The translations under genes were made by a program, and so were the position numbers. From Actinomadura nitritigenes (GTDB lineage Bacteria; Actinomycetota; Actinomycetes; Streptosporangiales; Streptosporangiaceae): DNA of 64,000 bases. Where the stretch lies: the NCBI RefSeq assembly GCF_017573545.1, contig NZ_JAGEOK010000032.1, positions 1-64,000 of the forward strand. Direction: 5' to 3'. The notes below the pieces were generated by a model. It did no database searches and was not told where the DNA came from. It worked only from the letters and a program-made list of their open reading frames with translations. Below, piece by piece: positions 10,231 through 34,199 of this stretch (the first letter of the stretch is position 1; every line of letters starts with the position of its first letter).

Positions 10231-10301
10231 AGCGGGCGACGGGAATCGAACCCGCGTAGCCAGTTTGGAAGACTGGGGCTCTACCATTGAGCTACGCCCG
10301 C
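10231..10301 (-). tRNA. tRNA-Gly (anticodon TCC)
   Basis: On the minus strand the sequence folds into a cloverleaf: acceptor GCGGGCG paired with CGCCCGC, D-arm TAGCTCAATGGTAGAGC, anticodon loop CTTCCAA with anticodon TCC, and T-arm GGGTTCGATTCCC. The discriminator base is T and the CCA end is not encoded. Its 3' end faces the mobile element, which is the usual orientation for an attachment site. Confidence 0.95.
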
Positions 10302-10420: not shown

Positions 10421-11239
10421 TTAGACTTCACGGGTCGCCGGGGACGGCGGCGTGTCGCGGGCTGTAGCGCAGTTTGGTAGCGCACTGGCTTTGGGTGCCA
10501 GGGGTCGTGGGTTCGAATCCCGCCAGCCCGACAGTGGAGTGCGCGGGCCGGGCAGGTCCGTGCCCGGGAGCGCGCCGCCCTTCCGGGCGTCGAGGATGGC
10601 GACCGCGGGGTACTTCCTCCTAGAGGCGTTTCGCGGGCGGAAGGCGTCCAAGCGCGTGGTGCGGTCCGCCTGGGCGGCTTCGGCGGGGTCGCGGGTGGTC
10701 AGCAGGATGGCGGCGCCCGCGCCGGCCAGCGTGCGCAGGGCGCGCCGGACGCGTTGGACCGTTCCGGAGTCCAGGCCGGCCATGGGGTCGTCGAGGAACA
10801 GGACGTCCGAGCGGTTCACCAGGGCGAGCGTCAGGTCGAGAAGGCGGCGCTCGCCGGCGTCCAGGCGCTCGAACGGGGTCGTGGAACGGCCGGTCAGACC
10901 GGTGAGGAGCAGAGCCTCCTCCCGGGTCAGCGGGTCGAGGGACCAGCGCCGCCAGGAGTCGACGATCTCGGCGGGGGTGAGGCCGGGGAACAGGCCGCCG
11001 TCGCGCCAGACGCTGCCGAGGCGCAGGCCGTCCCGCCGGTCGTAGGGGTCGACGCCCTTGACGCGGATCGTGCCGGAGAGGGGGCGGCGGAGCCCCGCCG
11101 CCGTTTCCAGCAGCGACGTCTTGCCCGCTCCGGCCGGGCCGAGCAGGGCGTGGATCTCGCCCGCGGCGACGGTGAAGGACAGGCCGTCGGACGGTCCGCC
11201 CTGGACGTGGAGGCAGGTGGCCTGTATCGCGGTTCCCAT
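10421..11239 (-). CDS. Orphan ABC transporter ATPase with 3' end antisense to tRNA-Pro
   Basis: The protein carries a Walker A (GPAGAGKTS), a degenerate signature region (ERLDAGERRLLDLTLAL, LDAGE in place of LSGGQ) and a Walker B (DVLFLDDPMAG), all in the first 200 residues. ATG 11239 is chosen because AAGGGA lies five bases upstream. No permease gene adjoins it. The frame lacks a stop until 10421, so the last 60 or so codons are simply the antisense of tRNA-Pro and flanks. The natural C-terminus was therefore probably lost or ended upstream of the tRNA in an ancestor. It may bind and hydrolyse ATP but its partner is unknown. Confidence 0.6.
   Translation of the reverse strand: MGTAIQATCLHVQGGPSDGLSFTVAAGEIHALLGPAGAGKTSLLETAAGLRRPLSGTIRVKGVDPYDRRDGLRLGSVWRDGGLFPGLTPAEIVDSWRRWSLDPLTREEALLLTGLTGRSTTPFERLDAGERRLLDLTLALVNRSDVLFLDDPMAGLDSGTVQRVRRALRTLAGAGAAILLTTRDPAEAAQADRTTRLDAFRPRNASRRKYPAVAILDARKGGALPGTDLPGPRTPLSGWRDSNPRPLAPKASALPNCATARDTPPSPATREV
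10458..10531 (+). tRNA. tRNA-Pro (anticodon TGG)
   Basis: The 74-base sequence folds as a cloverleaf: acceptor CGGGCTG paired with CAGCCCG, D-arm TAGCGCAGTTTGGTAGCGC, anticodon stem CTGGC/GCCAG with loop TTTGGGT (anticodon TGG), and T-arm GTGGGTTCGAATCCCGC. No CCA is encoded. The ABC ATPase frame on the other strand runs right through it. Confidence 0.95.
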
Positions 11240-25264: not shown

Positions 25265-25301
25265 GCCCCGCACGGCTTCCGGATGCGGACCCGTGCGGGG
25301 C
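25265..25301 (+). terminator. GC-rich terminator after the 5'-nucleotidase gene
   Basis: GCCCCGCACGG (25265-25275) and CCGTGCGGGGC (25291-25301) form a perfect 11-bp stem with a 15-base loop, ending 17 bases before the mftR start. It separates the nucleotidase from the mycofactocin locus. Confidence 0.75.
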
Positions 25302-25317: not shown

Positions 25318-25959
25318 GTGACCTCGGAAGGCGGGACGGCCGGTCCCCAGCGGGCCATGGGCAGGCCGCGCGCGACCTCGCCGGCCGTCCTGGAGCGGCT
25401 GGCGTTCGAGCTGTTCGCCCGCAAGGGGTTCGACGAGACCACCGTCGACGACATCGCCGCGGCGGCGGGGATCGCGCGGCGGACGTTCTTCCGCTACTTC
25501 TCGTCCAAGAACGACCTGGTGTGGGGCGACTTCGAGGGGCAGCTGCGGAGCCTGCGGGAGCTGCTCGACGAGGCGGACCCGAACGTCCCGATGATGGACG
25601 CGGTGCGCCGGGCCGTCGTCGAGTTCAACCGGTTCGACCCGCAGGACGTGCCCTGGCACCGGCAGCGGATGCAGCTGATCCTCGGGGTGCCGACGCTCCA
25701 GGCGGACGCGACGCTGCGGTACGCGTCGTGGCGGTCGGTGATCACGGCGTTCGTGGCCGAGCGGACCGGCGCGCCGGTGACGGCGCTGGTGCCCCGGCTC
25801 GCCGGCAACGTCGTGCTGTCGGCCTGCGTGTCGGCGTACGAGTTCTGGCTGGCGTCCGGCGAGGAGACGGTGCTCGCCGACGTGCTGGACGAGGCGCTGC
25901 GGCAGGTGAGCGCGGGCCTGTCGGCGGTGCTGGACGGCGCCGGCTCGGTGTCGGCGTAG
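25318..25959 (+). CDS. mftR: TetR-family regulator of the mycofactocin locus
   Basis: The 213-residue protein has a TetR helix-turn-helix (TTVDDIAAAAGIARRTFFRY followed by FSSKND) and a mycofactocin-type C-terminus. Its position next to mftG and mftA identifies it as MftR, which in mycobacteria represses mft genes and responds to acyl-CoAs (established knowledge). The start is a GTG at 25318. Its 3' end faces mftG tail to tail, with 38 bp between. Assignment rests on context plus family. Confidence 0.8.
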   Translation: MTSEGGTAGPQRAMGRPRATSPAVLERLAFELFARKGFDETTVDDIAAAAGIARRTFFRYFSSKNDLVWGDFEGQLRSLRELLDEADPNVPMMDAVRRAVVEFNRFDPQDVPWHRQRMQLILGVPTLQADATLRYASWRSVITAFVAERTGAPVTALVPRLAGNVVLSACVSAYEFWLASGEETVLADVLDEALRQVSAGLSAVLDGAGSVSA

Positions 25960-25997
25960 CGGGAGGCGCGGCGGGCGGGAGGCGCGGCGGGCGGGCG

Positions 25998-27536
25998 TCA
26001 GCCGCCGGCACGGACGGCCCCGGCGATCACCTCGCCGATGAGGACGGCCGTGGCGGCGGGCCCGCGCAGCGGCGCGTCCGGGAGGACGGACGTGTCGGCG
26101 ACGCGGAGCCCGGTCAGGCCGTGCACGCGGCCGTGGCCGTCGACGGCGGCGCCCATCGGCACGGTCCCGCAGGTGTGCTGGGACGTGCCGAGCCGGGCGA
26201 GGATCCACGCGTCGAGCAGGCCGTCGTCGTCCAGCGGGCCGGGCGGCGGGTCGGTCAGGCCACCGGAGACCTCGCCGAACGCGTCGGCCGTGACCACGGC
26301 GGCCGCGGCGCGCACGGCCTCGCGCATCCCGCGGCGGTCGGCGCCGGTCTCCAGGTAGCCGTAGGTGATCCGCGGCGGGACGTCGGGATCGGCGGAGACG
26401 GTGCGGAGCGTCCCGCTCGCGCGGGGCGCCAGCGCCGAGACGAGCAGGGGCAGGGGCGCGCCGGGGGCCGCCGCCTCCCCGCCGACCAGGCCCATGATCG
26501 GCACGAGTGACTGGAGGATCTCCAGGTCGCCCGCCGCGGCACCGCCGGTGGAGGGCAGGTGGAGGGCGCCGCCGAGCCAGTTCCCGGACGGCGGCGGCAG
26601 CGGGCGCCGGGGGGCCCATTCCACGGTGACCTGGGGATGGTCGCTGAGCGCGGCGCCCACGGCGGGCAGGTCGTGGACGACGGGGATGCCGTGGCGGGCG
26701 AGGTCGTCGGCGGGGCCGACGCCGGACAGGTGCAGCAGGTGCGGGGAGGAGAGCGAGCCCGCGCACAGGACGATCTCCCCCGCGTCCAGGACCGTCCGCC
26801 GCCCGCCGTGGTCGAGGACCGCGCCGGTCGCCCTGCCGCGCCTGATCTCGACCGAGCGCACCGCGCAGTCGCCGAGGACGGTGAGGTTGGGCCGGCGGGC
26901 GGCCTCGCCGAGGAGGTAGGCGACCCCGGTGTTGATCCGCCGGCCGTCCACCGTGTTCGACGGCACCGGGCCGGCCCCGGGCGCGGCCTGGGCGTTCTTG
27001 TCGGGGTCGTCCGGGTGCCCGAGGGACCGGGCGGCGGCGTGGAACGCGGCGGCGGCGGGATGGCTCAGGTCCGTGCGGCGGACGGGGACGGGGCCGCCGC
27101 CGCCGTGCAGCGCGGTGGCGCCGAAGTCGAGGTCGGTCTCCAGCGCCCGCATGAGCGGCAGCACCCGGTCGTAGGACCACAGGTCCCCGTGGACGGACCA
27201 GCGGTCGAAGTCCTCGCGCCGCGCCCGGACGAAGTAGCCGCCGTTGACGGTGGTGGACCCGCCGAGGAACCGCCCGCGCGCCGCCGCGTAGGGCAGGCCG
27301 GGCGCGAGGAGGGCCGGGAACGTCCGGACCGCGGCGTTGCCCGGTTGGGCGCCGGGCACGAGGCGCGCGTCCAGGAGGCCGCCGGGGAAGTCCGAGAGCG
27401 CGCGCGGGACCGGCCCCGCCTCGGCCAGCAGCACCTCGCATCCGGGGTCCTCACTGAGCCGGGCCGCCAGGACGGCGCCGCTGCCGCCCGCCCCCACCAC
27501 GAGCACGTCGGGGCGGCGCGGGGCGGGCGTGCTCAC
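25998..27536 (-). CDS. mftG: Mycofactocin-associated GMC oxidoreductase MftG
   Basis: The 512-residue protein is a GMC flavoenzyme: FAD site VLVVGAGGSGAVLAARLSED at the N-terminus, GGSTTVNGGYF near residue 90 and the active-site histidine region QHTCGTVPMG near residue 460. MftG is reported to reoxidise mycofactocin and pass electrons to respiration. The GTG start at 27536 overlaps the stop of a 7-codon open frame with its own ribosome binding site. The gene is divergent from mftA across 138 bp. Confidence 0.85.
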   Translation of the reverse strand: MSTPAPRRPDVLVVGAGGSGAVLAARLSEDPGCEVLLAEAGPVPRALSDFPGGLLDARLVPGAQPGNAAVRTFPALLAPGLPYAAARGRFLGGSTTVNGGYFVRARREDFDRWSVHGDLWSYDRVLPLMRALETDLDFGATALHGGGGPVPVRRTDLSHPAAAAFHAAARSLGHPDDPDKNAQAAPGAGPVPSNTVDGRRINTGVAYLLGEAARRPNLTVLGDCAVRSVEIRRGRATGAVLDHGGRRTVLDAGEIVLCAGSLSSPHLLHLSGVGPADDLARHGIPVVHDLPAVGAALSDHPQVTVEWAPRRPLPPPSGNWLGGALHLPSTGGAAAGDLEILQSLVPIMGLVGGEAAAPGAPLPLLVSALAPRASGTLRTVSADPDVPPRITYGYLETGADRRGMREAVRAAAAVVTADAFGEVSGGLTDPPPGPLDDDGLLDAWILARLGTSQHTCGTVPMGAAVDGHGRVHGLTGLRVADTSVLPDAPLRGPAATAVLIGEVIAGAVRAGG

Positions 27537-27556
27537 GCGGGAATCCGGCGGATCAT
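27533..27556 (-). CDS. Possible 7-codon leader peptide of mftG
   Basis: An ATG at 27556, with AGGAAGG about eight bases upstream, encodes MIRRIPA and stops at TGA, which overlaps the mftG GTG (GTGA). The mftG GTG has no good ribosome binding site of its own. Translation of the leader could therefore load ribosomes onto mftG. It may also be chance. Confidence 0.35.
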   Translation of the reverse strand: MIRRIPA

Positions 27557-27674
27557 GAAGCGGGACCTTCCTTTATGGCACTCGATGCATTTACTATCCG
27601 TCCAGGACCGATGGTACGAGCCGCCCCGCCAGCCGGGGCGGCCGGGCCGTCGCACGCCGCACGAGGGAGGACCC
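27557..27674. promoter_or_regulatory. mftG-mftA divergent promoter region with leader hairpin
   Basis: The gap is AT-richer at 27570-27600 and should hold both promoters. A hairpin with a perfect 9-bp stem (GCCGCCCCG at 27620-27628, CGGGGCGGC at 27634-27642, five-base loop) lies 32 bases before the mftA start and would be in the mftA leader. I see no unambiguous MftR operator. Confidence 0.45.
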
Positions 27675-27797
27675 ATGGAGAGCAACGCTCCGCAGAACCC
27701 GCCGGCCGACCAGGCCGACGACCGCGCCCAGGACGCCGACGTCGCCGAGTCGCTGATCGAGGAGGTCTCGATCGACGGCATGTGCGGCGTCTACTAG
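27675..27797 (+). CDS. mftA: Mycofactocin precursor peptide
   Basis: The 40-residue peptide ends in the diagnostic core IDGMCGVY, of which the last Val-Tyr pair becomes the cofactor. MftC decarboxylates and crosslinks the C-terminal tyrosine, then MftE cuts the product off. The acidic N-terminal leader (about 28 residues, many Asp and Glu) is the recognition part bound by MftB. ATG 27675 follows GAGGGAGGA. It is followed 10 bases later by mftB. Confidence 0.95.
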   Translation: MESNAPQNPPADQADDRAQDADVAESLIEEVSIDGMCGVY

Positions 27798-27807
27798 GCC
27801 GCACGCC

Positions 27808-28095
27808 ATGGCCCAGCCCGTGCCGGACCTCGACCTCGACCGCGCCTGGGACCTGCACCCGCAGGTCTCGGTGCGGCCCGAGCCCTTCGGCGCGCTCCTC
27901 TACCACTTCGGGACGCGCAAGCTGTCGTTCCTGAAGGACCGCCGCCTCCTGGAGGTCGTGCGGTCCCTCGGGGAGGCGCCCACCGCCCGGGAGGCGTGCA
28001 CCCGCGCCGGCGTCCCCGCGGCGGACCTGCCGAGGTTCGGCGCGGCGCTCGGCGCCCTCGCCGGCTCCTCCATGCTCGTGGAAAGGACCCCATGA
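27808..28095 (+). CDS. mftB: Mycofactocin peptide chaperone (PqqD-like RRE)
   Basis: The 95-residue protein is the RiPP recognition element of the pathway: a beta-rich N-terminus (WDLHPQVSVRPEPFGALLYH) and helices that bind the MftA leader and present it to MftC. It lies between mftA and mftC and its stop overlaps the mftC ATG (ATGA). Length is normal for MftB. It has no catalytic residues. Confidence 0.9.
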   Translation: MAQPVPDLDLDRAWDLHPQVSVRPEPFGALLYHFGTRKLSFLKDRRLLEVVRSLGEAPTAREACTRAGVPAADLPRFGAALGALAGSSMLVERTP

Positions 28096-29333
28096 CCCTC
28101 GCTCCGCAGAGCCCCGCGCAGCGGCCCGGGACGCGGCTGGTCGACCTGTTCGAGTACGGGCTCGACGCGCCGATCTGCCTGACCTGGGAGCTCACCTACG
28201 CCTGCAACCTGTCGTGCGCGCACTGCCTGTCCAGCTCGGGACGGCGCGACCCGCGCGAGCTGAGCACCGAGGAGTGCAAGGCCGTCATCGACGAGCTGGA
28301 GGCCATGCAGGTCTTCTACGTCAACATCGGCGGCGGCGAGCCGACCGTCCGGCCCGACTTCTGGGAGCTGCTGGACTACGCCACCGCCCACCACGTGGGC
28401 GTGAAGTTCTCCACCAACGGCGTCCGGATCACCCCGGAGGTCGCCGAGCGGCTCGCGGCCAACGACTACGTGGACGTGCAGATCTCGCTGGACGGCGCGA
28501 CGCCCGAGGTCAACGACGCGGTTCGCGGCGCCGGCTCCTACGACACCGCGATCCGCGCGATGCGCAACCTGCGCGACGCGGGCATGAAGAACTTCAAGCT
28601 GTCGGTGGTGTGCACCCGCCACAACATCCCGCAGATGGACGCGTTCAAGGCGATCGCCGACGAGTACGGCGCGCAGCTGCGGCTGACGCGGCTGCGCCCG
28701 TCCGGCCGCGGCGCGGACGTGTGGGACGAGCTGCACCCGCGCCAGGAGCAGCAGCGCGAGCTGTACGACTGGCTGGTGGCGCACGGCGACAGCGTGCTGA
28801 CCGGCGACTCGTTCTTCCACCTGTCGGCCTACGGCAAGGCGCTGCCCGGCCTGAACCTGTGCGGCGCCGGACGGGTGGTGTGCCTCATCGACCCCGTCGG
28901 CGACGTGTACGCCTGCCCGTTCGCGATCCACGACGAGTTCCTCGCGGGCAGCATCCGGCAGCCCGGCGGGTTCGCCCGCGTCTGGCGCGAGTCGGACCTG
29001 TTCCGGAACCTGCGCGAGCCGCAGACCGGCGGGGCGTGCGCGTCCTGCGGCTTCTACGACACGTGCAAGGGCGGCTGCATGGCCGCCAAGTTCTTCACCG
29101 GCCTGCCGCTGGACGGTCCCGACCCCGAATGCGTGCAGGGGCACGGCGAGAAGCTGCTGGCGCGGCGTCCCGAGGACCGGGCCGGCATCCCGAAGCCGTC
29201 CGCCGACCACTCGCACCGCATTTCGCCGCCGCGCCGGCGGCCGGTGCCGGTCACGCTCATGAGCCGCCCGCCGGAGCGCCCGCCGGTGAGCGCCTGCGAG
29301 GAGAACCCGCTGGCCGGACTCCGGCTTTCCTAA
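28092..29333 (+). CDS. mftC: Mycofactocin radical SAM maturase
   Basis: The 413-residue protein has the radical SAM motif CNLSCAHC (Cys38, Cys42, Cys45) and a C-terminal SPASM region with many cysteines (CASCGFYDTCKGGC and further) for two auxiliary iron-sulfur clusters. It decarboxylates the MftA C-terminal tyrosine and then forms the Val-Tyr bond. It overlaps mftB by 4 bases. The last 40 residues after the SPASM domain are Pro-rich and not conserved in my view of the family. Confidence 0.95.
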   Translation: MTLAPQSPAQRPGTRLVDLFEYGLDAPICLTWELTYACNLSCAHCLSSSGRRDPRELSTEECKAVIDELEAMQVFYVNIGGGEPTVRPDFWELLDYATAHHVGVKFSTNGVRITPEVAERLAANDYVDVQISLDGATPEVNDAVRGAGSYDTAIRAMRNLRDAGMKNFKLSVVCTRHNIPQMDAFKAIADEYGAQLRLTRLRPSGRGADVWDELHPRQEQQRELYDWLVAHGDSVLTGDSFFHLSAYGKALPGLNLCGAGRVVCLIDPVGDVYACPFAIHDEFLAGSIRQPGGFARVWRESDLFRNLREPQTGGACASCGFYDTCKGGCMAAKFFTGLPLDGPDPECVQGHGEKLLARRPEDRAGIPKPSADHSHRISPPRRRPVPVTLMSRPPERPPVSACEENPLAGLRLS

Positions 29334-29395
29334 CGGTTCCCCTGGCGGTTCCTCTACCGGACCCTCCGGGGTCCGCCCATTCAGGAGACATCGAC

Positions 29396-30586
29396 ATGTT
29401 CAAGAACCCGTGGTTCGAGACCGTGGCCGAGGCGCAGCGCCGGGCCAAGCGGCGGCTCCCGCACATGGTCTACGGGGCGCTGGTCGCGGGCTCGGAGCGC
29501 GGCCGCACCATCGACGCCAACACGAAGGCGTTCGGCGACCTCGGCTTCGCGCCCCGGGTCGTCGGGCACAAGGCGCAGCGCGACCTGTCCACCACCGTGA
29601 TGGGCGTGGAGACCTCCATGCCCGTGCTCATCTCCCCCACCGGCGTGCAGGCCGTGCACCCCGACGGGGAGGTGGCGGTGGCTCGGGCCGCCGCGAACCG
29701 GGGCGTCATCATGGGGCTCAGCTCGTTCGCGAGCAAGCCCGTGGAGGAGGTCGCGGAGGCCAACCCGAACGTCTTCTTCCAGATGTACTGGAGCGGCGAC
29801 CGCGACGCGATGGTCCAGCGCCTCGACCGCGCGAAGAAGGCGGGCGCGAAGGCGCTGATCGCCACGCTCGACTGGTCGTTCTCCAACGGCCGGGACTGGG
29901 GCAGCCCCATGATCCCGGAGAAGATCGACTTCAGGACGGCCGCGAAGCTCGCGCCGGGCGTGCTGCCGCATCCGGGCTGGCTGTGGAAGTTCGCCAAGGA
30001 GGGCCGCATCCCGGACCTCACCACCCCGAACCTGAAGCCGCCGAACGGCCCGGCGCCCACCTTCTTCGGCGCGTACGGCGAGTGGATGCAGACACCGCCT
30101 CCCACCTGGGAGGACGTCGCGTGGCTGCGCGAGGAGTGGGGCGGCCCGTTCCTGCTCAAGGGCGTCACCCGCGTCGACGACGCCAAGCGCGCCGTGGACG
30201 CGGGGGTGACGGCGCTGTCGGTGTCCAACCACGGCGGCAACAACCTCGACACGACGCCCGCCACGATCCGGGTCCTGCCGTCGATCGCCGAGGCGGTCGG
30301 CGACCAGATCGAGGTGCTGCTGGACGGCGGCGTGCGGCGCGGCGGCGACGTCGCCAAGGCCCTCGCGCTCGGCGCGCGCGCCGTGCTGATCGGCCGCGCG
30401 TACCTGTGGGGGCTGGCCGCCAACGGGCAGGCCGGCGTGGAGAACGTCCTGGACATCATGCGCGGCGGCCTCGACTCCGCCGTGCTCGGGCTCGGCCACG
30501 CCTCGGTGAATGAGCTCGGCCCCGACGACCTCGTCATCCCGCCCGGCTTCGCGCTGACGCTGGGCGGCGGCGGCTCGGCCGGCTGA
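29396..30586 (+). CDS. mftD: Mycofactocin FMN dehydrogenase (alpha-hydroxyacid oxidase fold)
   Basis: The 396-residue TIM-barrel flavoprotein has the FMN and substrate motif SNHGGNNLDTTPATIR, with Asn-Asn in the place where lactate oxidases have Arg-Gln, a normal feature of MftD. It oxidatively deaminates the peptide-derived intermediate AHDP to pre-mycofactocin, giving the redox-active alpha-keto amide. ATG 29396 follows AGGAGA. It is 62 bases after mftC and one base before mftE. Confidence 0.9.
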   Translation: MFKNPWFETVAEAQRRAKRRLPHMVYGALVAGSERGRTIDANTKAFGDLGFAPRVVGHKAQRDLSTTVMGVETSMPVLISPTGVQAVHPDGEVAVARAAANRGVIMGLSSFASKPVEEVAEANPNVFFQMYWSGDRDAMVQRLDRAKKAGAKALIATLDWSFSNGRDWGSPMIPEKIDFRTAAKLAPGVLPHPGWLWKFAKEGRIPDLTTPNLKPPNGPAPTFFGAYGEWMQTPPPTWEDVAWLREEWGGPFLLKGVTRVDDAKRAVDAGVTALSVSNHGGNNLDTTPATIRVLPSIAEAVGDQIEVLLDGGVRRGGDVAKALALGARAVLIGRAYLWGLAANGQAGVENVLDIMRGGLDSAVLGLGHASVNELGPDDLVIPPGFALTLGGGGSAG

Positions 30587-30587
30587 C

Positions 30588-31361
30588 GTGCCCGGTGCCG
30601 GAGACCTTGCCGGTGGCGGAGACCCGGCAGGCGCCGGAGACCTGGCCGGGGCCGCCTGGACGGACGTCCGGGCGGCCCCGCTCGTCCTGGTGCCGGTCGG
30701 GTCGACCGAGCAGCACGGGCCGCACCTCCCGCTGTCCACCGACACGATGATCGCGGAGGCGGTCGCCGCACGCGCGGCGGACGCCCTGCGCCCGGAGGCG
30801 GGCGGGCAGGTGCTCGTCGCGCCGGCGATCGCGTTCGGGGCGAGCGGCGAGCACGCCGGCTTCCCCGGCACGGTCTCGATCGGGCACGAGACGCTGAACG
30901 CGGTGCTGGTGGAGACCGTGCGGTCGCTCGCGCTCTGGGCGGGACGCGTCGCCTTCGTCAACGGGCACGGCGGCAACGTCCCCACCCTCGACGCCGCCGC
31001 CGGCCGGATGCGCGCCGAGGGGCACGACACCGCCTGGGTCGGCTGCGGCGTGCCCGGCGGCGACGCGCACGCCGGGGTCACCGAGACGTCCGTGATGCTG
31101 CATCTGGCCCCCGGCCTGGTGCGTCCGTTCGGCGGCGTCACCGGGGAGACCCGCCCGCTCGCCGCGATCATGCCGGAACTGGTCGCGGGCGGCGTCCGCG
31201 CCGTCTCGCCGTCCGGCGTGCTCGGCGACCCGGCCGGAGCGTCCGCGGGACGGGGCCGCGAGATCGCCGCGGAGATGGTGGCGTCGGTCGTCCGCCGGAT
31301 CGGCCGCTGGCGGGCGGACGAGCACGGCCGCCTCCTCGACCCCGCCGCCGCGCGGCCATGA
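30588..31361 (+). CDS. mftE: Mycofactocin precursor peptidase (creatininase family)
   Basis: The 257-residue protein has the creatininase metal motifs VPVGSTEQHGPHLPLSTDT (Glu41, His43) and VNGHGGN, and a later GDAHAGVTETS. It releases the C-terminal two-residue product from MftA. The N-terminal 21 residues are an odd repeated Gly-Ala-Asp segment (GAGDLAG, GGDPAG, AGDLAG) absent from typical MftE, so the true start could be later. The GTG at 30588 is one base after the mftD stop. Its 3' end overlaps mftF by 4 bases. Confidence 0.9.
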   Translation: MPGAGDLAGGGDPAGAGDLAGAAWTDVRAAPLVLVPVGSTEQHGPHLPLSTDTMIAEAVAARAADALRPEAGGQVLVAPAIAFGASGEHAGFPGTVSIGHETLNAVLVETVRSLALWAGRVAFVNGHGGNVPTLDAAAGRMRAEGHDTAWVGCGVPGGDAHAGVTETSVMLHLAPGLVRPFGGVTGETRPLAAIMPELVAGGVRAVSPSGVLGDPAGASAGRGREIAAEMVASVVRRIGRWRADEHGRLLDPAAARP

Positions 31362-32875
31362 GCGCGCCGAAGGATCGGTTCCGGCTGCCCGCCGGCCTCC
31401 CCGTCGCGCTGGCCCGGGACACCTCGCTCTGGTCGGGCGGGCGCGTCGCCACCGGCGGCGCTCCCTGGAAGGTGGTGCGGCTGGCGGACGCGGCGCGCCC
31501 GCACCTGGCGGCGCTGCGCCGGGCGGGCCGGTCCGGCCTCGCCGACCCCTCGCCGCTCGGGCGGGCGCTGGCCCGCAGGCTCCTCGACCTCGGCATGGCC
31601 GACCCGCTCCCCGCGCCGCGTCCCGGCCCGCACGACGTGACGGTGGTGATCCCCGCCTACGAGCGGGCCGACGAGCTGGAACGGTCCGTGGCCGCCGTCG
31701 GGGACGTGCCGGTCGTCGTCGTGGACGACGCGTCGCCCGACCCCGGACCGCTGCGGCGGGTCGCGGAGGCGCACGGCGCGCGGCTCGTCCGGCACTCCCG
31801 CAACCGGGGCCCGGCGGCGGCGCGCAACACCGGCCTGCGCCTGGTCGAGACCCGGTTCGCCGCGTTCGTGGACTCCGACTGCCGCCCGATGGCGGGCTGG
31901 CTCGACGTCCTCGTCCCGCACTTCGACGACCCGCGCGTCGCCGCCGTCGCCCCCCGGATCGTGCCGATGTCGGACGACACCGGGCTGCTGGCCCGCTACG
32001 AGACCGCGCGGTCGGCGCTGGACATGGGCCTGCGGCCCGCGCTGGTCCGGCCCGGCGGCCGGCTCGGGTTCGTGCCGACCGCGACGCTGCTGATCCGGGT
32101 CGCGGCCGTCCCGGACGATCCGTTCGACGAGGACCTGCGGCTTGGCGAGGACGTCGACTTCGTCTGGCGGCTGGGCGACCGGGGGTGGAACGTCCGCTAC
32201 GAGCCCGCCGCGCGGGTCGCGCACACGCCGCGGCTGCGCCCGGCGGCCTGGGCGCGGCGGCGGCACGAGTACGGCACGTCCGCCGCCGACCTCGCCCGGC
32301 GGCACCCCGGCCGGCTCGCGCCGGCCCGTCCGTCGCTGTGGAACCTCGCCGTGCTCGGGCTGCTCGCGCGCGGACGCCCGGGCGCGGCCGCCGGCGTCGC
32401 GGGAGTGGCGGCGGCGCTGCTGGCCAGGCGGCTGTCGCGGCTGCCCGCCGACTGGAGCCTGGCCGCCGCGATCGTCGGCAAGGGCGTCACCGCCGACGCC
32501 GCCGCCCTCGGGCACGCGCTGCGGCGCGAGTGGTGGCCGCTCGGCCTGGTCGCGCTCGCCGCCTCGCGCCGGAGCCGGGTCGCGCGCGCGGCGGCCGCGG
32601 CCATGCTCGCCCCCATCGCGCTGGAATGGCTGCGGCAGCGTCCGGTCGTCGATCCCGTCCGCTACACGGTCCTGCGGCTCGCCGAGGACGTCGCCTACGG
32701 GTCCGGTGTAACGGCCGCGTCCGCCCGCGCGCGCTCGGCCGCTCCCCTGCTCCCGGACGTCCGGTTCCCCGAGTCGTTCCCGGCCGCCGCAGAACGGGCG
32801 CGCAAGGCCGCCGGACGGTGGATCGCGGCCGTCCGCCCGGCCGGCCGCGATCCGCGCTCACGCCTTCCGCGCTGA
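31358..32875 (+). CDS. mftF: Mycofactocin glycosyltransferase
   Basis: The 505-residue protein has a GT2 domain with VTVVIPAYERADELERSV, VVVVDDASPD and FVDSDCRP (the nucleotide-sugar metal motif), then a C-terminal region with several hydrophobic stretches (about 350-420) that may associate with the membrane. It adds glucose chains to pre-mycofactocin. It overlaps mftE by 4 bases and closes the mftABCDEF operon. The SDR gene converges from the right. Confidence 0.9.
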   Translation: MSAPKDRFRLPAGLPVALARDTSLWSGGRVATGGAPWKVVRLADAARPHLAALRRAGRSGLADPSPLGRALARRLLDLGMADPLPAPRPGPHDVTVVIPAYERADELERSVAAVGDVPVVVVDDASPDPGPLRRVAEAHGARLVRHSRNRGPAAARNTGLRLVETRFAAFVDSDCRPMAGWLDVLVPHFDDPRVAAVAPRIVPMSDDTGLLARYETARSALDMGLRPALVRPGGRLGFVPTATLLIRVAAVPDDPFDEDLRLGEDVDFVWRLGDRGWNVRYEPAARVAHTPRLRPAAWARRRHEYGTSAADLARRHPGRLAPARPSLWNLAVLGLLARGRPGAAAGVAGVAAALLARRLSRLPADWSLAAAIVGKGVTADAAALGHALRREWWPLGLVALAASRRSRVARAAAAAMLAPIALEWLRQRPVVDPVRYTVLRLAEDVAYGSGVTAASARARSAAPLLPDVRFPESFPAAAERARKAAGRWIAAVRPAGRDPRSRLPR

Positions 32876-32885
32876 GACGCCGGAG

Positions 32886-33692
32886 TCAGCGGTTGAGGGC
32901 GCCGAGGTCGACCGGCAGCTGGGCGCCGGTGATGTACTTGCCCTCGTCGGAGGCCAGGAACGCGACGATGTTCGCGATGTCCTCCGGCTCGACCATCTCG
33001 TAGGGCAGCGTCGCCATGTAGATGGGCGCGAGCAGCGGGGTCTGCTCCAGCAGCTCGGTCATCGTCCCGGCGGTCATGCCGGTCCGCACCCCGTGCGGGT
33101 GGACGGTGTTGACCCGGATGTCGTGCTCGCCCAGCTCGTTGGCCAGCACCTTCGCCAGGCCGACGACGCCGTGCTTGGACGAGGCGTAGTGGGCGAGGAA
33201 CGGCAGCCCCTTCAGGCCCGCCACCGAGCTGGTGATGATGATCGAGCCGCCCTGGCCCTGCTCGATGAGCGTCGGGACGGTGGCCTTGACCGTCTTCCAC
33301 ACCCCCGTGAGGTTGGTGTCGATGATGTCCTGCCACTGCTCCTCTTCGAGCTCCCAGGTGCGGCCGTAGTTCACGATCCCGGCGTTGGCCACCACGACGT
33401 CCAGCCGGCCGAGCTCGGCGACGCCCTCGCTGACGGCCGACTGGAGCGCGGCGAGGTCGCGCACGTCCGCCTTGCGGGCCACCACGCGGCGCCCCTGGGC
33501 CTCCACGAGCTTGGCGGTCTCGTCCAGGTCGGACTGGGCGGAGGGCTCGTAGGGGACGTACGAGCTGGCCGACCCCACGAGGTCGACCGCGATGATGTCG
33601 GCGCCCTCGGACGCGAGCCGGACGGCCTCCGCGCGCCCCTGCCCGCGCGCCGCACCGGTGATGAAAGCGACCTTGCCTGTCAAACGCGCCAT
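32886..33692 (-). CDS. Mycofactocin-coupled SDR oxidoreductase
   Basis: The 268-residue SDR has the cofactor motif ITGAARGQGRA, NAG near residue 100 and the catalytic Tyr-Lys in YASSKHG. Its N-terminal half has an insertion after the second strand (about residues 38-60, LVGSASSYVPYEPSAQ) that is the mark of mycofactocin-linked carveol-dehydrogenase-like SDRs with a non-exchanging NAD. It converges on mftF with 10 bp between. It would oxidise an alcohol and hand electrons to mycofactocin. Confidence 0.85.
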   Translation of the reverse strand: MARLTGKVAFITGAARGQGRAEAVRLASEGADIIAVDLVGSASSYVPYEPSAQSDLDETAKLVEAQGRRVVARKADVRDLAALQSAVSEGVAELGRLDVVVANAGIVNYGRTWELEEEQWQDIIDTNLTGVWKTVKATVPTLIEQGQGGSIIITSSVAGLKGLPFLAHYASSKHGVVGLAKVLANELGEHDIRVNTVHPHGVRTGMTAGTMTELLEQTPLLAPIYMATLPYEMVEPEDIANIVAFLASDEGKYITGAQLPVDLGALNR

Positions 33693-33871
33693 GGCTTACT
33701 TCCTCCACATGGGTCAGACCCGGCGACGCAGAGGTGGAAGGCCTTTTCGGGCGGACAACGGCTGCGCTGCCATCGGGCCGATAAGCGGTCCAGGCCATAG
33801 TGGCACTCAGTGTCAAAAGGAGCAAGGGCCTGCTCGCACCGCATCACCACCGGTCACGGGACGCGGACGAC

Positions 33872-34105
33872 GGCGGCGTGTACTTCGTCGCCCTCTCCGG
33901 CCTGTCCGAGCCGACACTGCTGGCGCAGGCGATCTGCGACGCGCTCGGCCTCGCCGAGCAGGGCGGCGAGCCCGCCGCGTCCCGGCTGGCCGACCATCTC
34001 GCCGACCGGCGGGTGCTGCTCGTCCTCGACACCTGCGATCACCTGCTCGACGAGTGCGCCGCGCTGGCCGAGGCGCTGCTGCGGAGCGCGCCTGGGCTGC
34101 GAGCA
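33872..34105 (+). pseudogene. Fragment of an AfsR/LuxR-type regulatory ATPase
   Basis: This stretch encodes VYFVALSGLSEPTLLAQAIC through RVLLVLDTCDHLLDECAAL, which matches the Walker B and flanking region of large AfsR/SARP or LuxR regulators (LLVLDNCEHLLD). The Walker A side, the helix-turn-helix and the rest are missing. About 78 codons remain, so it is a remnant. The upstream frame back to 33800 has no start of the family. Confidence 0.65.
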
Positions 34106-34199
34106 GGGCGTCTCGGCGCGGGACGTTCCGGCGGAGGCCCGCCTGCCGTACTGAAGACGTCCCCCGCCGGCCCGGGCCGATCGAGGTCCGCGCGCCGGT

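Follow-up and report, generated by a model that had tools for sequence, protein, structure and literature searches.

Gene content of the mycofactocin locus

The window analysed here is a stretch of 64,000 nucleotides (positions 1 to 64,000 of NZ_JAGEOK010000032.1, assembly GCF_017573545.1) that forms part of a contig of the 10.6 Mb genome of Actinomadura nitritigenes. It holds a mycofactocin biosynthesis locus whose completeness, including an associated short-chain dehydrogenase/reductase (SDR), is fully supported by the family assignments of its genes, together with two predicted operators of the TetR-family repressor MftR, one in the divergent mftG/mftA gap and one at the SDR promoter (Table 1). 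Genes were called by the curated cut-off of their own NCBIfam family, with Pfam as a cross-check (E<=0.001). All nine genes (mftR, mftG, mftA-F and the SDR gene) exceed these cut-offs, the usual companions MftD, MftE and MftR being present beside MftA, MftB, MftC and MftF, and Pfam is consistent with NCBIfam for all of them but mftB, for which Pfam yields nothing at this E-value. In the genome, MftA has a single match and MftR a single match above cut-off, the five further TIGR03968 matches all falling below it.

Table 1. Genes and predicted regulatory elements of the mycofactocin locus (positions in the window)
Feature	Position	Strand	Evidence or remark
mftR, TetR-family repressor	25318..25959	+	TIGR03968 273.6 bits (cut-off 224.9); Pfam TetR_C_14 'MftR C-terminal domain'
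mftG, GMC-family mycofactocin dehydrogenase	25998..27536	-	TIGR03970 412.3 bits (cut-off 387.45)
Predicted MftR operator/promoter block	27566..27602	+	divergent mftG/mftA gap; palindrome core 27576-27590 TGGCACTCGATGCAT
mftA, mycofactocin precursor, 40 aa, C-terminus IDGMCGVY	27675..27797	+	TIGR03969 50 bits (cut-off 25); Pfam MftA 55.3 bits
mftB, peptide chaperone	27808..28095	+	TIGR03967 108.7 bits (cut-off 33)
mftC, radical SAM/SPASM maturase	28092..29333	+	TIGR03962 659.9 bits (cut-off 265)
mftD, pre-mycofactocin synthase	29396..30586	+	TIGR03966 686.3 bits (cut-off 470.85)
mftE, creatininase-family peptidase	30588..31361	+	TIGR03964 301.6 bits (cut-off 172)
mftF, glycosyltransferase	31358..32875	+	TIGR03965 410.2 bits (cut-off 280)
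Mycofactocin-coupled SDR, carveol-dehydrogenase-like	32886..33692	-	TIGR03971 380.4 bits (cut-off 300)
Second predicted MftR operator	33789..33825	-	upstream of SDR; core 33801-33815; 96 bases before SDR start

A preliminary description, made from the sequence, had already placed MftR, MftG, MftA-F and a mycofactocin-type SDR here. Its coordinates were right, and the IDGMCGVY core that it called diagnostic is indeed the end of the 40-residue MftA. The tight overlaps that it also reported exist as 4-base overlaps at mftB/mftC and mftE/mftF, with mftD and mftE 1 base apart; however, 10 bases separate mftA from mftB and 62 bases separate mftC from mftD, and mftG and the SDR gene lie on the minus strand.

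The gene set itself is an ordinary member of a well-known locus type. Compared with the mycobacterial gene order, mftG here separates mftR from mftA and is read in the other direction, and the TIGR03971 SDR gene is convergent to mftF and has its own predicted operator. The likeness to the Mycobacterium cluster (Rv0691c-Rv0697 and the mft genes of Mycobacterium smegmatis; PMC3023750) extends to the same MftA-F, MftR and MftG families and to the same kind of palindromic operator upstream of mftA.

Predicted MftR operators at mftA and at the SDR gene

The divergent gap between mftG and mftA is 138 bases long and contains CTTTATGGCACTCGATGCATTTACTATC. In M. smegmatis, the MftR footprint covers 27 bp (TCCATTCTGGCACTCGATGCCATATAT) upstream of mftA and encloses the palindrome T-N2-GGCA-N5-TGCC-N2-A (PMC8728441). 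The block in the gap matches this footprint, its palindrome being near but inexact (GGCA-N5-TGCA, with T for the last A, at 27573-27593). We built a matrix from the sequence upstream of mftA in related loci of named genomes in which the MftA end is readable (78 in all); it was refined on those same mftA sites, which makes it partly circular, with the window site and all SDR sites excluded. The element was found upstream of mftA in 69 of these loci at a score >8 and in 62 at >=18, in many actinobacterial genera beyond Mycobacterium and Mycolicibacterium. In the window, the mftA site comes top with 38.9 bits and the SDR site second with 25.4 bits, the maximum in 20 simulated 64-kb sequences being 11.3. 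The same scan gave no noteworthy operator score upstream of mftR in the window. An inverted repeat with 11-base arms (25265-25301), possibly a terminator, lies there between mftR and a nucleotidase/cyclic-phosphodiesterase-like gene.

At the scale of the genome we used a profile derived solely from mftA sites, with which 150 of 1592 first-look candidates were scored. Three matches were obtained at E<=10: the mftA site (2.8e-5), the SDR site (0.0275, 18.2 bits) and a site on contig C50 (0.25). A degenerate extended pattern allowing <=3 mismatches had four matches in the genome, namely the SDR site (33798-33818) with 0 mismatches and the mftA site and two others with 3 each, as compared with one for its reversed control. 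Discrimination was achieved by this extended motif only and not by the short pattern TGGCACTCNNTGNNA, which with one mismatch matched 32 times genome-wide (42 for the reversed control) and with two mismatches 8 times in the window (shuffle mean 10.7), that is, at chance level.

Six columns (C14, T21, G22, T27, A28 and T32) are invariant among 67 distinct mftA sites that score >=30 bits and were aligned without that of the window. The form TAnnnT occupies columns 27-32 and is preceded, at a spacing of 17 bases, by the majority consensus TTCCTT in columns 4-9. This arrangement suggests, from the alignment alone, a promoter in which the operator palindrome would fill the spacer between a -35-like TTCCTT and a -10-like TAnnnT. 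Of the 56 loci with an mftG match >=200 bits, 55 have this gene ahead of mftA and on the other strand, and in 20 mftR stands between the two. The gap operator is positioned to act on both genes, and MftR may control mftG as well as mftA.

The link between element and repressor was examined in 82 loci with >=4 kb on either side of mftA (operator >=13 bits, mftR >=70 bits; at least three genomes are represented twice). Operator and mftR occur together in 65 loci, neither in 8, the operator only in 8 and mftR only in 1. Hence 65 of the 66 loci with mftR carry the operator; the remaining one (L020) has a palindrome with unlike flanks. The recognition-helix region of MftR is similar in 16 hand-picked loci, from Actinomadura to Rhodococcus and Gordonia.

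Sites of this kind are not confined to mftA. Among 80 named loci, 12 have a site >=15 bits that is not assigned to a readable mftA. These sites lie before mftD (L028, L029 and L038), before mftR (L038), before an SDR just ahead of mftD (L037), before an SDR pair (L009), before the SDR orthologue of A. rifamycini (L004) and shortly before mftC in L024 (1133) and L040 (6834); L032, L051, L059 and L074 are further loci with such sites. In neither L024 nor L040 was a readable MftA end or mftB found, and their mftA and mftB may lie elsewhere. A family-wide profile search placed an operator at E<=0.05 in 36 of 200 genomes, five of which (G126, G129, G181, G200 and G215) were chosen for their second site and are, as a biased sample, illustrative only. 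Outside the genus, mftF is placed apart with its own operator (G181, G215), an 81%-identical SDR with an operator lies 0.33 Mb from the mft cluster (G200) and a 53%-identical one 1.4 Mb from it (G126). In G129, the third operator of the genome (C1:524870; L343:1867-1903) stands before an apparent broken start of another SDR copy.

The O-mft operator of M. smegmatis likewise pairs a TetR repressor with a palindrome upstream of mftA, and the operator survey in PMC8728441 covers Mycobacterium and Mycolicibacterium, whereas the present one adds many other genera and second transcription units. In the literature searched, which left most subscription papers outside, we found no MftR operator outside these two genera or at an SDR. 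A regulon study of M. tuberculosis (PMC9044949) mentions mycofactocin in one figure legend, and a passage search of its main text yielded no MftR targets.

Conservation of the predicted operator at the SDR gene

Conservation was assessed in 65 genomes of the genus; the counts are genomes and not independent events, as kin share ancestry. MftA is present in 23 of them, and the trait is therefore patchy in the genus. These genomes hold 24 mft clusters, one genome having two; mftG lies between mftR and mftA in 18, including that of the window, and four belong to a more distant type (MftC 71-76% identical). At E<=0.1, 22 MftA-positive genomes out of 23 have profile matches, including in every case one at mftA; among the 42 MftA-negative genomes, a single one has a match (G039, E 0.091). 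The positive genome without an operator (G032) is also without a detectable mftR beside its cluster. As a separate observation, G027 has two mycofactocin clusters (L170 and L176), one with mftR and the operator and the second without either.

Ten second sites were found in the genus by profile, all just upstream of orthologues of the window SDR. At the eleventh orthologue (G036) the profile missed the site, to which the matrix gives 26.6 bits, so that all 11 orthologues carry an operator (22.6-38.5 bits). The orthologue group is well delimited: ten relatives are 79.9-95.9% identical to the window SDR, and since the 28 other TIGR03971 matches of the genus for which the whole sequence was available (five of which fall short of the cut-off) reach <=55.1% identity, we regard the group as well separated. 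The genus list above cut-off comprises 70 TIGR03971 members, 11 orthologues and 59 others; within ~450 bases, none of 58 of these others has an operator >=15 bits (best 8.4 bits), the 59th lying at a contig end. Nine of the 11 orthologues adjoin the mft cluster. In G018, the SDR gene is on a 107-kb contig and its site scores 38.5 bits, the mft cluster lying well inside a 430-kb contig; in G043 the two are on separate contigs that both end too early to judge the distance. When the sequences upstream of 15 orthologues are aligned (11 of the genus, four of the family; L172 is misaligned owing to its different spacing), the operator block is conserved, while the preceding sequence and the following length vary.

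These data bear on a rival view, namely that the mft cluster is a standard one and the SDR gene a mere neighbour, whose motif either arose by chance as a palindrome or serves a different TetR regulator. The modest score of the SDR site in its own genome would fit such a view, as would the existence of related TetR regulators among the five sub-cut-off TIGR03968 matches: one of these, an MftR-like TetR gene match (97.5 bits), starts 69 bases after the similar palindrome TGTCACTCGGTGACA (C8:101266-101280, L193), perhaps an autoregulation site of a related regulator with a changed half-site. Against this stand the retention of the site at every one of the orthologues, even far from the mft cluster as in G018, its conservation amid a diverged background and the lack of a comparable site at the 58 other SDRs of the family that were compared, so that we regard the view as unlikely. 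Beside the SDR promoter, positions 33800-34150 carry a remnant, with a match to Pfam AAA_22 that stays below cut-off (E 3.7e-4), which we take to resemble the ATPase part of an AfsR/SARP-type regulator.

Several points nevertheless weigh against a role of MftR at both sites. The SDR site is the weaker of the two and differs in one half-site and an end base from the consensus of M. smegmatis; being only moderate and not compelling alone, it must be decided by conservation, and the genomes whose conservation carries the claim are related. There is also the third match of the genome (C50:99825), which overlaps the 3' end of a predicted open reading frame on the other strand and is probably due to chance. 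A strict sigma-70 consensus scan called no promoter at either operator. The operator is found in 8 of the 16 loci without an mftR match, where mftR may be located at another place or have diverged too far for recognition. In the genus, 12 MftA-positive genomes out of 23 are without this SDR. Finally, the genome searches scored part of the candidates (105 per genome for the operator profile, 32 per genome for TIGR03971), and absences are not strict.

Candidate cofactor users and the predicted role of MftR

The SDR of the locus is the one TIGR03971 member above cut-off in this genome, whereas up to 31 members of three families per genome have been described (PMC3023750). Of 23 further TIGR03971 matches (E<=1e-40), the next ten do not pass TIGR03971. 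Other mycofactocin SDR subfamilies were rejected as assignments for the ten next-best SDRs, such a model being absent from the best 25 families of each, compared over the matched stretch only. The genome also encodes two zinc alcohol dehydrogenases of the N,N-dimethyl-4-nitrosoaniline (NDMA) type (TIGR03989, 602 and 572 bits, above cut-off), with no operator >=18 bits in their surroundings (L190, L191).

In the genus, TIGR03971 above cut-off occurs in 20 of the 23 MftA-positive genomes (all but G012, G015 and G049), as against 3 of the 42 MftA-negative ones (G025, G028 and G038, contrary to the usual rule), and a single genome may hold up to ten members. The seven solved structures closest to the SDR (3pgx, 3tsc, 3oec, 3uve, 5ej2, 3sx2 and 3t7c) are all among the mycobacterial structures of PMC5264612. 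There, an insertion that buries nicotinamide adenine dinucleotide (NAD) is described for the TIGR03971 'carveol dehydrogenases', whose NAD is non-exchangeable, with a loop over NAD in 3pgx; unlike these, the present SDR belongs to an orthologue group 80-96% identical in the genus and with a predicted MftR operator. Its residues 3-105 align gap-free to 3pgx, the best solved relative, and span the NAD-binding half.

The SDR might instead be under MftR control and yet not use mycofactocin, either as an ordinary NAD-exchanging dehydrogenase or as a step that makes or degrades the MftR ligand. Since MftR answers long-chain acyl-CoA in M. smegmatis (PMC8728441), a role in lipid metabolism is conceivable. 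We nonetheless consider this highly improbable: the SDR passes TIGR03971 and follows 3pgx without gaps across the NAD-binding half, the insertion that buries NAD is present in 3pgx, whose gene lies close to the mft genes of the species it comes from, M. paratuberculosis (PMC5264612), and the family tracks MftA in the genus, as given above.

An Fe-type NDMA methanol dehydrogenase was rejected as the local alcohol oxidiser, since the genome has no match at E<=1e-30 to TIGR04266, the family that we take to hold Msmeg_6242. The latter has been named the likely reason for the methanol and ethanol defect of M. smegmatis mft mutants (PMC8728441). The mycofactocin-dependent alcohol metabolism anticipated in the preliminary description therefore needs qualification: in general it is plausible, one TIGR03971 SDR and two TIGR03989 dehydrogenases making it a reasonable expectation, but growth on simple alcohols is not transferable unchanged from mycobacteria. 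The predicted MftR operators, absent from that description, speak most strongly for a functional tie between the SDR and the locus.

With conserved operators at both the mft genes and the SDR gene, MftR most likely controls the synthesis of the cofactor jointly with one dedicated dehydrogenase, and probably also the recycling by MftG, as far as sequence comparison can tell. We accordingly hold it probable that this is a complete mycofactocin system in which MftR, acting at both palindromes, co-induces the cofactor, its recycling by MftG and one dedicated SDR. From the gene families, the operator sequences, their conservation and their co-occurrence, which are directly observed, we infer MftR binding, repression, the inducer, the control of mftG, the bound NAD and the class of substrate. 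Following the established pathway, with steps assigned by family, MftA would be made and bound by MftB, cross-linked by MftC and trimmed by MftE; MftD would then oxidise the product to pre-mycofactocin and MftF would glycosylate it. The SDR, holding a buried NAD, would oxidise an alcohol and hand the electrons to mycofactocin, which MftG would re-oxidise towards the respiratory chain, as MftG connects mycofactocin to respiration in M. smegmatis (PMC11778925). MftR, as a TetR repressor, would bind the palindrome in the mftG/mftA gap and the second one at the SDR promoter, so that the cofactor, the recycling enzyme and the one dedicated dehydrogenase would be induced together. The inducer would probably be a long-chain acyl-CoA, which releases MftR in M. 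smegmatis (PMC8728441), and the substrate is perhaps, at a guess, an alcohol from lipid or terpenoid metabolism.

Beyond this locus, and with less assurance, we are inclined to think that a small, scattered MftR regulon exists across actinobacteria in which displaced mft units keep their own operator, and that the regulon of this genus has exactly one mycofactocin-type SDR, which would represent the primary purpose of the cofactor in the lineage and is the sole SDR of its family here. Outside the locus, the window also has two tRNA genes on opposite strands, at 10231-10301 (-) and 10458-10531 (+).

A genome can encode a large number of mycofactocin users, for most of which the natural substrate has yet to be established. 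Where the family has up to ten members per genome, an operator held in common with the cofactor genes points to a single one of them. With one family SDR above cut-off, A. nitritigenes would be well suited to studies of the purpose that mycofactocin serves beyond the mycobacteria, and dedicated mycofactocin enzymes may be detectable elsewhere by means of the operator profile.

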